Source of the DNA: an uncultured Rhodospirillales bacterium
Lineage (GTDB): Bacteria; Pseudomonadota; Alphaproteobacteria; CACIAM-22H2
Direction: 5' to 3'
Assembly (NCBI GenBank): GCA_903860935.1
Contig: CAIOSQ010000232.1
Coordinates: 1-37,687, forward strand
DNA length: 37,687 bases
Made by a program: the position numbers and the translations under genes. The number at the start of each line of letters is the position of its first letter. Positions within the stretch are counted from its first letter, which is position 1. Of this stretch, positions 1 to 5,239 are shown one piece after another. The notes under the pieces were generated by a model. The model was not told the origin of the DNA. It was given only the letters and a program-made list of their open reading frames with translations, and did no database searches.

Positions 1-1742
1 GGATCGTCGGCGGCGAGGCGCTGCTCCGCGCGCGCCAGCCGCGCCTCGTCGTCCTCGCCGGCGCGCTCGCCGACACGGCGGATCGCGACCAGGGCCTGGA
101 GCGTCTCGACGAGCGGCGCCCACCAGGTCGCGGCGGGCTGATCCTGCCGCACCGCGCGCAGCGCCGCCGCGGCATGTGCCGGAAATTCGGCGCGCAGGGC
201 CGCGCGGTCGGGCGGCGACGCGGCGAGCGCCGCCTCGAGACGCACGAGCGCATCAGCCAGCGACGGATGGGCGGCGATGCGGTCGCGAAGCGGCGCGAGG
301 GCCTGGGCAGGCGACGTTCCGCCGGCGAGGGCCGCGCGCAATGCGGCAATCGCCGCGGCCGGCGTGTCCGCCACGGTCGCCGACACGGACGACGAGGAGA
401 GCGGGGGCAGGGGCGGGGGCGGCGGTGACGAAGAGGCCGGGGCGGCGGCGCGCAACGTCTCGATCTCCGCGCGCAGCCGCCGCATGTCGTCGGTGAGGGC
501 AGCGAGAGCGGCGGCAGCGGCCCCCTCCTCCGCCGCCGGCTTCGGCTCCGGACCAGGCGCGGCGGAGGCCTGCAGCGCGGCGACGGCGGCGGCCGCTGCG
601 GACGCGGCGCGCGCGGTTTCGGCGCGCACCTCGCGGTCGATGGCGTCGATCCGGCCAGCGAGCCCATTCAGCGCCGCGGCAAGCGCGTCGAGGCGCGCAT
701 CGACGCGACGATCCCGTTCCGCCGCGGCATCGCGCTCGCCGCGCGCAGGCTGCAGGGCGGCCAACGTGCGCTCCATCTGGTCGACACGATCGCGCGCGGC
801 GCTCTCGCGCGCCGCCTGCGCGGCATCGCGACCCGGCGCGTTCAGCAGCACGCGCAGATCGAGGGCGAGCGCGGCAACGGCCACCAGCCCGACCAGAAGG
901 ACCGGCCACGGCGCGGCGCGCGCGCGGGCGGGCGAAGCGGGCGGCGGGGCTGTGGGAGGGGCCGGCTCGGGCGCCGCTTTCGGTTCGGACATGGTCTGGG
1001 TCCCCTCCATCCGCTCCGCGCCCGCCGCCATCCCGGCCGCGGCGTCGACCAGCGCGAGCAGGGCGTCCTCGTCGGGCGTGGCGGCGATGGCGACGCGCCG
1101 CCAGCCAAGATCAGCCACCGCCTCGGCGACGGCCGGGCTGAGCGCGAACAGGGTCAGCCGCGACAGCGCGGCGCGCAACTCCGGCGCGGCCGTCACCGCG
1201 GCGAAGGTCGCCGCGCTGCGGGGCGAGAATAGCAGCACACCGTCAAGCACGCCGTCGGCGAGCGCGTCATGGGCCGCGGCGGAAAGCCGCGTCGCGGGCT
1301 CGGCCGCGTAGAGCGCGGCGCGCCCGACCACGAAGCCGCGCGCGGCAAGCGGGCCGGCGAGATCGCCTGCGACGACCCGTCCCGCGACATGGAGCACCGC
1401 GCCCCTCGCCGGGTCGAGCCGCGTGACGACCAGCGCCGCCAGCGCGCGCACGTCGCCGCCGGCGCTCTCGACCGTCGCACAGCCGATCTCGCGGGCCGCC
1501 GCGGCGGTCGCCGGCCCGACGGCGTAGACCGGCAGGTCGCGGCGCGGGCTGCGCAGCGCGAAGGCGCGCACGCCATTGGCCGAGGTGAACAGCAGCGCCT
1601 GCACGCCCTCGAGCGAGAGCGGCGCGAACAGGTCGGGCGCGATGGTCAGGAGCGGCTCGATCGCCGCCTGATGGCCGCGCGCCTCCAGCCGCTCCGCCAG
1701 CGCCTGGGACTCGTCGAGCGGACGCGTGACGAGAAGTCGCAT
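1..1742 (-). CDS. hemD: Uroporphyrinogen-III synthase (HemD) fused in frame to a mitofilin-like membrane protein; C-terminus off the left edge
   Basis: One reading frame runs from ATG at 1742 to the window edge (580 codons) with no stop; I checked it line by line. Residues 1 to about 235 are a HemD domain, which closes and isomerises hydroxymethylbilane to uroporphyrinogen III in haem synthesis: N-terminus MRLLVTRPLDES, then TSANGVRAF and FSPRSAATF. A Pro/Ala-rich linker follows, then one hydrophobic helix (about 279-297), a long Ala/Arg/Glu-rich heptad region (about 300-440), a second Pro-rich linker and a helical segment typical of bacterial mitofilin/COG4223-like proteins. In Alphaproteobacteria hemD and a mitofilin-like gene are usually separate neighbours. 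The start lies 8 bp after hemC, so the two are probably co-transcribed. An internal ATG at 992 has a strong Shine-Dalgarno sequence, so the second half might also be made alone. HemD is certain; the mitofilin label rests on topology and gene order. Confidence 0.85.
   Translation of the reverse strand, partial: MRLLVTRPLDESQALAERLEARGHQAAIEPLLTIAPDLFAPLSLEGVQALLFTSANGVRAFALRSPRRDLPVYAVGPATAAAAREIGCATVESAGGDVRALAALVVTRLDPARGAVLHVAGRVVAGDLAGPLAARGFVVGRAALYAAEPATRLSAAAHDALADGVLDGVLLFSPRSAATFAAVTAAPELRAALSRLTLFALSPAVAEAVADLGWRRVAIAATPDEDALLALVDAAAGMAAGAERMEGTQTMSEPKAAPEPAPPTAPPPASPARARAAPWPVLLVGLVAVAALALDLRVLLNAPGRDAAQAARESAARDRVDQMERTLAALQPARGERDAAAERDRRVDARLDALAAALNGLAGRIDAIDREVRAETARAASAAAAAVAALQASAAPGPEPKPAAEEGAAAAALAALTDDMRRLRAEIETLRAAAPASSSPPPPPLPPLSSSSVSATVADTPAAAIAALRAALAGGTSPAQALAPLRDRIAAHPSLADALVRLEAALAASPPDRAALRAEFPAHAAAALRAVRQDQPAATWWAPLVETLQALVAIRRVGERAGEDDEARLARAEQRLAADD
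990..1008 (-). promoter_or_regulatory. Internal Shine-Dalgarno and in-frame ATG inside the hemD-mitofilin frame
   Basis: On the minus strand GGAGGGGA (1008-1001) lies 8 nt before an in-frame ATG (992-990) that would begin MSEPKAAPEP. It sits exactly at the junction between the HemD domain and the Pro-rich linker. This is where a separate mitofilin-like gene would be expected to start, so it may be a leftover or still active ribosome binding site giving a shorter second product. Use of the site is inferred. Confidence 0.5.
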
Positions 1743-1750
1743 GGGCGGCG

Positions 1751-2686
1751 TCAGGCCACGCGCGGGAAGTCGTCGCCGGCCATCTCCAGGATGCCGAGCC
1801 CGACCTCGCGCCCCAGCGCCTCGCCCTCGCCCGCCGGCGCCGAAAGGCTGAAGCGCCAGGCACGGCGCCCGTCGGGCTGCGCCACCAGACCGGTGAGCGA
1901 GAGGAGCCCGTCCACGAGGCGGGCATGGCCCGCGATCGGCGTGCGGCAATTGCCCTCGAGCTGGGCCAGCATCGCCCGCTCCGCACCGACGGCAAGACGG
2001 GTCGGCGCATGATCGATGGCGGCAAGATAGCCGCCGAGCCGCGCATCGCCGCCGCGGATCTCGCACCCCACCGCGCCCTGGCCGACGGCGGGCAGCATCT
2101 CGTCGGCGTCGAGCAGACAGGTGATCCTGTCCGTGAGACCAAGCCGGTTGAGCCCGGCGGCGGCGAGCAGGATGGCGTCAAACTCGCCGCTCTCGACCTT
2201 GCGCAGCCGCGTGTCGACATTGCCGCGCAGCATGGACAGGACGACGTCGTCGCGCTGCGCCAGGATCTGGGACTGGCGGCGCAGGGCCGACGTGCCGATC
2301 CGCGCGCCGGCGGGCAGGGTCGACAGGCCGCTGCACGGGACGCGCGCGATCAACGCGTCGCGCGGATCCTCGCGCGGCAGCATCGCCGCCAGCGCGAAGG
2401 GCCCAGGCAGCGCCGCCGGCAGGTCCTTGACCGAATGCACGGCGAGATCGATGGCACCGGCGGCCAGCGCCTCCTCGAGTTCCTTGGTGAACAATCCCTT
2501 GCCGCCGATCGCCGAGAGCGGCCGGTCCTGGATCCGGTCTCCGGTCGTGCGGATGACGACGATCTCGATGGCGCCAGGCGCGGCGAGGTCGGGCCAGGAC
2601 GCGGCGAGGGCGCCGCGGACGAGGTCGGCCTGGGCGAGCGCGAGGGCCGAGCCGCGGGTCCCGAGCCTGAGGATGGGTGTGCTCAT
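1751..2686 (-). CDS. hemC: Hydroxymethylbilane synthase (porphobilinogen deaminase)
   Basis: A cytoplasmic enzyme of haem synthesis that joins four porphobilinogen molecules into hydroxymethylbilane, the substrate of the HemD domain encoded next. The 311-residue length is normal for the family. The N-terminus reads [15 protein letters not shown]. The catalytic Asp is D88 in HSVKDLP, the substrate-binding arginines lie in GTSALRRQ (131-138) and LRGNVDTRL (153-161), and C247 in [12 protein letters not shown] is the expected dipyrromethane cofactor attachment site. The ATG at 2686 has no recognisable Shine-Dalgarno. A GATAAA box ends only 8 bp upstream, so the transcript may have little or no leader. 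The gene diverges from acs. Confidence 0.97.
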
Positions 2687-2838
2687 GGCTGTCGTTTATC
2701 AGGGCCGGACCGCCGTCGCCAGTTCGGGTACAAAATCGGCCCAGCGTCTTGTGCGCGGCGATGGCCGTAGATAAAGAGTGGCGTTACCCGGGGGGCCCGG
2801 AGCGCCTCGGAAGCCGCGTCATGCAGGGAGAGACAGCC
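2687..2838. promoter_or_regulatory. Divergent promoter region between hemC and acs
   Basis: A 152-bp gap between two divergent genes must hold both promoters. On the minus strand GATAAA (2700-2695) could be a -10 for hemC, with only a poor -35 upstream. On the plus strand TTGTGC (2749-2754) and TAGATAAAG (2768-2776) could serve acs, but the spacing is short. No clear operator was seen. Confidence 0.35.
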
Positions 2839-4782
<1,944 letters not shown>

Positions 4783-4813: not shown

Positions 4814-5239
4814 ATGAGCCCGAAGGGCTGCCTCTCGACCTCGATCGTCCTGCTCCTCGCCGCGTGGTCGCTGCTGGTCGGCGGCCTCGTGGTGGCGGGC
4901 TGGTTGGGCGCCGAGATCCTGGACTTCGCGCTGCGCGTCCTGCTCGGCGGCGACGGTCATGCCGCGCGGATCGCCCGCGACATGCTGGAGGCCCTGCGCG
5001 CGATCGGCTTCGGCGTGATGGCAGGTCTCTGGGCCATCGGCGCGGCGGTGCTCTGCGCGCTCTGGATCTCGTTCCGGCGCGGCGCCGCCCAGGAGCGCAT
5101 GATGACCGAGACCACGCTGCGGCGCGGGCGCGTGGTCGACATCGAGGTCGTCGAGATCGACGCGCGACGGGATCAGGCGGGCATGAAGGACGTCACGCCG
5201 AAGCGCCCGGACGAATTGCCGCCGCCCGGCAAGGGCTGA
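4814..5239 (+). CDS. Small two-helix membrane protein of unknown function
   Basis: A 141-residue protein that I cannot assign to a family. It has two strongly hydrophobic segments, about residues 10-34 (IVLLLAAWSLLVGGLVVAGW) and 62-85 (AIGFGVMAGLWAIGAAVLCA). Between them is a short loop with charged residues, and after them a hydrophilic tail rich in Arg, Asp and Glu ending in Pro/Gly. The basic segment SFRRGAAQER after the second helix suggests that both termini are cytoplasmic. It starts 31 bp after acs on the same strand and may be read through from it, but nothing in the sequence ties it to acetate use. Its stop lies only 4 bp from the convergent stop of the ABC transporter gene. Codon use looks like that of its neighbours, which supports it as a real gene. 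Confidence 0.7.
   Translation: MSPKGCLSTSIVLLLAAWSLLVGGLVVAGWLGAEILDFALRVLLGGDGHAARIARDMLEALRAIGFGVMAGLWAIGAAVLCALWISFRRGAAQERMMTETTLRRGRVVDIEVVEIDARRDQAGMKDVTPKRPDELPPPGKG

Follow-up and report, generated by a model that had tools for sequence, protein, structure and literature searches.

Bacterial Mic60 is ancestral to the protein that gives mitochondrial cristae their shape. We know of no explanation for the presence of a mic60 gene among the heme genes of alphaproteobacteria. In PMC12631773, Mic60 (mitofilin) is described as having an N-terminal transmembrane (TM) helix, a coiled coil and a C-terminal mitofilin domain, and the studies on alphaproteobacterial Mic60 by Munoz-Gomez et al. 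and Tarasenko et al. are cited in that article and in PMC12136173. A hemC-hemD-IMMP(mitofilin)-hemY operon has been described for alphaproteobacteria (BMC Biol 2020, PMC7641849). The closest named protein architecture is the HemD-HemX fusion (NF005411, PRK06975), in which HemD is followed by a TM helix and a coiled coil in one chain.

Here we describe a hemD-mic60 open reading frame (ORF), which is a fused variant of the known gene pair; the novelty lies in how widespread the fusion is and in the internal start retained within it. Our literature search returned no paper treating Mic60 together with HemD in alphaproteobacteria and none describing the fusion, but key Mic60 papers lay outside its scope and an earlier mention is possible. 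The papers found for Mic60 and uroporphyrinogen dealt with mammalian, cell-culture or general heme topics only.

The fused ORF and its operon

The window, i.e., the whole stretch of DNA analyzed here (37,687 nucleotides), constitutes an entire contig (C232) of the draft assembly GCA_903860935.1 of an uncultured Rhodospirillales bacterium. The relevant features are as follows, in the order of transcription.

1751–2686, minus strand: hemC (porphobilinogen deaminase, 311 aa; Pfam Porphobil_deam E 4.2e-78, Porphobil_deamC E 1.2e-13)
3–1742, minus strand: fused hemD-mic60 ORF, 580 codons without a stop, truncated at window base 1, where the contig ends
1056–1703, minus strand: HEM4/HemD domain, residues 14–229 (Pfam E 4.5e-40)
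903–1055, minus strand: linker, residues 230–280, Pro/Ala-rich and predicted to be disordered (AlphaFold)
1002–1008, minus strand: Shine-Dalgarno (SD)-like GGAGGGG preceding the internal ATG (anti-SD pairing −9.8 kcal/mol)
990–992, minus strand: in-frame internal ATG, codon 251 (MSEPK...), candidate start of free Mic60
846–902, minus strand: predicted TM helix, residues 281–299, VLLVGLVAVAALALDLRVL, mean hydropathy 2.44
444–824, minus strand: long helices/coiled-coil region, residues 307–433 (AlphaFold secondary structure)
3–356, minus strand: N-terminal ~70% of the mitofilin domain, residues 463–580, cut by the contig end

The ORF starts at the hemD ATG (window 1740–1742, minus strand), 8 nt after the hemC stop. 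A first-pass annotation had claimed that the HemD frame continues without a stop through the linker, the helix and the coiled coil to the window edge, and our reading of the 580 codons from 1742 to 3 agrees. Since the window is the whole contig and ends inside the gene, the fused gene lacks its 3′ end: the ORF matches profile positions 1–548 of 595, and alignment with complete relatives places the loss at ~50 C-terminal residues. Nothing of the missing part was found elsewhere in the assembly in a search that used the downstream ORF of a same-genus relative as the query and had no positive control.

The gene order in the window is hemC-hemD-mic60, with the contig ending before any downstream gene. 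In the relatives L010 and L038, an ORF with a HemY-like N-terminus, identified by eye, lies 3′ of the fused gene. With hemC before the fused gene and an ORF at the place of hemY after it, the relatives appear to follow the gene order of the published operon, in which HemD and mitofilin are listed as separate members rather than one ORF.

We considered the open frame as evidence of fusion and rejected it after simulation. At the same composition, 67% of the 54-codon linkers and 6% of the whole 345-codon tails were free of stops, and an antisense frame of 344 codons is likewise open across the region. Because the DNA is so GC-rich, openness is weak evidence; the claim is carried by the recognizable domains on both sides in one frame and, decisively, by the comparison with relatives.

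Domain composition and predicted topology

The window ORF encodes, in order, HEM4 (HemD), the linker, one TM helix, the coiled coil and ~70% of the mitofilin domain. HEM4 (PF02602) scored 137.7 bits against a cut-off of 27.5 and covered profile positions 2–230 of 231, i.e., its full length. The AlphaFold model of the HemD part was confident (pLDDT mostly above 90), and Foldseek searches with the window protein and with the complete relative L038 ranked HemD structures first for both, with matches to 4es6, 3re1 and 3mw8. Foldseek recovered the HemD half alone; Mic60 surfaced by sequence, not by fold. By domain and fold, the HemD half is a putative uroporphyrinogen-III synthase; indirect hints of catalytic activity are that it is the sole HemD detected in the organism's genome and that it is encoded beside hemC.

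For the membrane half, we made a mitofilin-domain profile from other genomes, leaving out the window protein; it matched residues 463–580 over profile positions 8–124 of 169 (74.6 bits, E 4.4e-25). A search of the PDB with a profile of the A1 alignment found HemD (3mw8, 4es6) over positions 1–232 and MIC60 (7pv1) over 529–591. Complete orthologues exceeded the Pfam Mitofilin (PF09731) cut-off of 27.4, e.g., L010 with 52.6 bits and L087 with 81.1 bits. The membrane part, previously annotated as mitofilin-like, is by these sequence matches a true mitofilin/Mic60 relative. The proposal that HEM4 and mitofilin occur in one chain held for complete relatives, in which both domains pass the curated Pfam cut-offs (L010, of the same genus, L012, L014, L016 and L021, and seven more: L055, L069, L070, L087, L117, L101 and L092), but not for the truncated window protein itself, in which Pfam reports no Mitofilin.

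The layout is that of Mic60, with one N-proximal TM helix (281–299) followed by long helices (307–433). In the AlphaFold models of the window protein and L038, a confident HemD (pLDDT above 90) is followed by a disordered linker, then one helix, a stretch of long helices and, at the C-terminus, a helical domain, and relatives of the window protein match coiled-coil models. Lys/Arg residues are biased toward the segment preceding the TM helix in 40 loci versus 3 with the opposite bias, which predicts a cytoplasmic HemD and a periplasmic mitofilin domain. The fused protein is accordingly predicted to be N-in/C-out, the counterpart of the mitochondrial Mic60 topology. The window protein shares the TM helix, the coiled coil, the mitofilin domain and the N-in/C-out orientation by the charge rule with alphaproteobacterial Mic60 (PF09731), but differs from plain Mic60 in that its cytoplasmic N-terminus bears an enzyme, HemD.

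Occurrence of the fusion among relatives

A HemD search covered 61 genomes, and the frames at the matches were then read. Most genera of the window's family had this single ORF, with an ORF of HemY-like N-terminus coming after its stop. In the window's family, 22 of 23 genomes had a match, and 19 of these 22 were open across the junction: 15 complete ORFs (563–695 aa), which end in a normal stop, and four cut by contig ends, including the window. The split state was confined to one genus of the family (g5, three genomes). We then assembled 103 distinct loci (80 from GTDB genomes plus the genome-search loci, with duplicates removed), of which 57 were fused, 38 were split and eight had no mitofilin in the DNA examined. 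Among the isolates with the fused form are Dongia mobilis CGMCC 1.7660, D. deserti, Magnetospirillum aberrantis SpK, M. moscoviense BB-1, Oceanibaculum pacificum and Pararhodospirillum oryzae; the split form occurs, for instance, in Azospirillum species, Skermanella aerolata, Fodinicurvata fenggangensis and Magnetospirillum sp. UT-4.

In a survey of the class (289 genomes), 22 genomes besides the window's, from 13 families, had one stop-free match to nearly the whole model. This number is a minimum, since the match to a fused gene is in many cases broken into two. The open-frame length and the stop counts of this survey were not used alone for split/fused calls, since stops were read through there and may be terminal. 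The survey of alphaproteobacterial genomes proposed in the first-pass annotation thus recovers the same fusion in the window's family and in many other alphaproteobacteria, and its premise that these are normally two neighboring genes is borne out by the 38 split loci. Judged from these comparisons, the fusion is not peculiar to the window organism, and its spread makes a refutation by resequencing very unlikely.

Some family members have additional, weaker matches at the mitofilin end of the model (G006:C2:171029–174587, G009:C44 and C107, G004:C253), which suggest further mitofilin-like paralogues.

Switching between the fused and split states

On a HemC+HemD tree, we counted at least 15 changes between the two states; this is a quick tree with many weak forks, from which the direction of the changes was not inferred. 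Fused and split forms occur among close relatives in Magnetospirillum. In 24 of the 38 split pairs the two genes lie in different frames, and in eight a single in-frame stop is the sole separation. Since the fusion is not fixed, neither HemD nor Mic60 can depend on it for its function. At the same time, whole groups (Dongiaceae, Kiloniellaceae and nearly all of family f1) stay fused. The fused linkers vary in length between 27 and 248 codons yet stay in frame, and their dN/dS values of 0.12–0.63 in close pairs match those of protein-coding sequence.

The fused linkers are also rich in candidate start codons. An in-frame ATG is present in 49 of the 57, at a rate of 2.0% compared with 0.6% in the HemD domain and 1.1% past the TM helix. 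We counted 39 ATGs with an SD-like site versus 15.0 ± 3.5 (maximum 25) in 500 codon shuffles, a test that overstates the significance because the rows in the count are related. The residues that follow the ATG in fused linkers (MSEPK, MTETP, MSEDR, MAEPS) resemble the N-termini of split Mic60 proteins (MTEEAKED, MSDTDKP, MADEKEPG). The split-gene control was weak, with SD pairing of the first ATG at or below −5.5 in 24% only, in part since the true start of a gene need not be its first ATG. Some fused genes, e.g., L012, L017, L019, L025 and L040, have no evident internal start. If the internal start is kept in use, free Mic60 could also be made; it could instead be a relic of a recent stop loss. 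Given the related rows and the weak control, we infer its use rather than read it directly from the counts.

Candidate products of the fused gene

We regard the hemD-mic60 fusion in the heme operon (hemC - hemD-mic60 - hemY) as real and conserved, and its reading as the gene of a tethered HemD-Mic60, probably with free Mic60 in addition, has a probability of roughly 80%. In the proposed arrangement, a cytoplasmic uroporphyrinogen-III synthase would be tethered via a flexible linker to the N-in/C-out TM helix of bacterial Mic60, with the coiled coil and the mitofilin domain of the latter on the periplasmic side. The fused ORF would still contain the start codon and the ribosome-binding site of the ancestral Mic60 gene, and internal initiation would probably yield free Mic60 as well. 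The single ORF with both domains and the TM helix, the conservation across genera and isolates, the repeated switching and the start signals above chance were computed directly, and from them we infer translation as one chain, the topology and the dual products.

The strongest competitor holds that the genes are fused in DNA only, with Mic60 made mostly from the internal ATG and/or the linker cleaved, so that the state is nearly neutral and flips by the loss and gain of stops. The frequent state changes, the loci parted by exactly one in-frame stop, the preserved internal ATG with its SD-like site and the predicted disorder of the linker all fit this account. However, ribosomes that start at hemD meet no stop, and hence some fused chain must arise; in addition, entire groups remain fused with the frame kept despite varying linker lengths, and the five genes named above offer no evident internal start. 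On balance we regard a fusion confined to the DNA as unlikely, though deserving of serious consideration.

Returning to the tethered HemD-Mic60, any advantage may lie in placing HemD near the membrane-bound later steps of heme synthesis or in a fixed stoichiometry of the two proteins. A more specific version, which we offer tentatively and would not bet on as a whole, is that of a nested gene: the full ORF would give HemD-Mic60, with uroporphyrinogen-III synthesis at the Mic60-shaped membrane, the conserved internal ribosome-binding site and ATG would give free Mic60, and the lineage would toggle with the split form by single stop codons gained or lost. The functional link to membrane architecture, at which the first-pass annotation hinted, is a hypothesis. 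The recurrent, conserved fusion of Mic60 with a heme enzyme speaks for a direct connection between them, by co-localization or by stoichiometry and coupled expression, and the culturable fused species provide material for testing it.

HemX and assembly artefacts

The membrane half might alternatively be HemX, which would make the window protein an instance of the HemD-HemX fusion known from other Pseudomonadota (PRK06975/NF005411). The layout is the same (HemD, TM helix, coiled coil), and NF005411 does match residues 1–359 of the window protein, but at 33.6 bits, far under its 414-bit cut-off. Complete relatives give Pfam Mitofilin and not HemX, which is unreported in the window protein too, and when the profile of the Mic60 part was compared with HemX profiles, 16 columns only could be aligned (probability 68% and 10%). 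The C-terminal half thus carries a mitofilin domain in place of HemX, with no full-length profile match to the latter; we rejected the assignment to HemX, which we consider very improbable.

That an assembly or sequencing error joined two genes is scarcely credible: the draft consists of 468 contigs with the gene at a contig end, and the assemblies of several relatives (G001, G004, G006) also break inside the gene, but the same architecture in independent assemblies and isolate genomes refutes an artefact as its source.

The breaks lie inside the alanine-rich Mic60 part (G000:C232 end, G001:C93, G004:C140, G006:C72), and since several independent assemblies break there, draft genomes may understate how often the fusion occurs. 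In G050 (CP030885), two head-to-head copies of the fused gene lie at the beginning of the sequence (C1:1–4152) and the gene recurs near its end, which is probably an end-assembly artefact of the chromosome record.

Neighboring genes and an additional domain in Mic60

Divergent to hemC, a large ORF resembling acetyl-CoA synthetase occupies window positions 2677–4782 on the plus strand, and the same was seen by eye in the same-genus L010. At its position, L030, L012 and L016 have a TsaD-like frame, also identified by eye, which agrees with the published head-to-head arrangement.

A carph-isopro domain (NF046037, helix-turn-helix-like) was found in L055 at residues 277–328 (locus 4829–4984), with 63 bits against a cut-off of 38. 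In many Kiloniellales/Azospirillum-type bacteria, the domain forms part of the cytoplasmic N-terminal portion of Mic60; the motif is present in 10 fused and 14 split loci, namely in the fused linkers of L042, L044, L069, L082, L086, L088, L091, L106 and L112 besides L055, and at the split Mic60 N-termini of L064, L066, L074, L078, L080, L097, L109 and others. It is possible that these Mic60 proteins carry a DNA-binding domain on a membrane protein.
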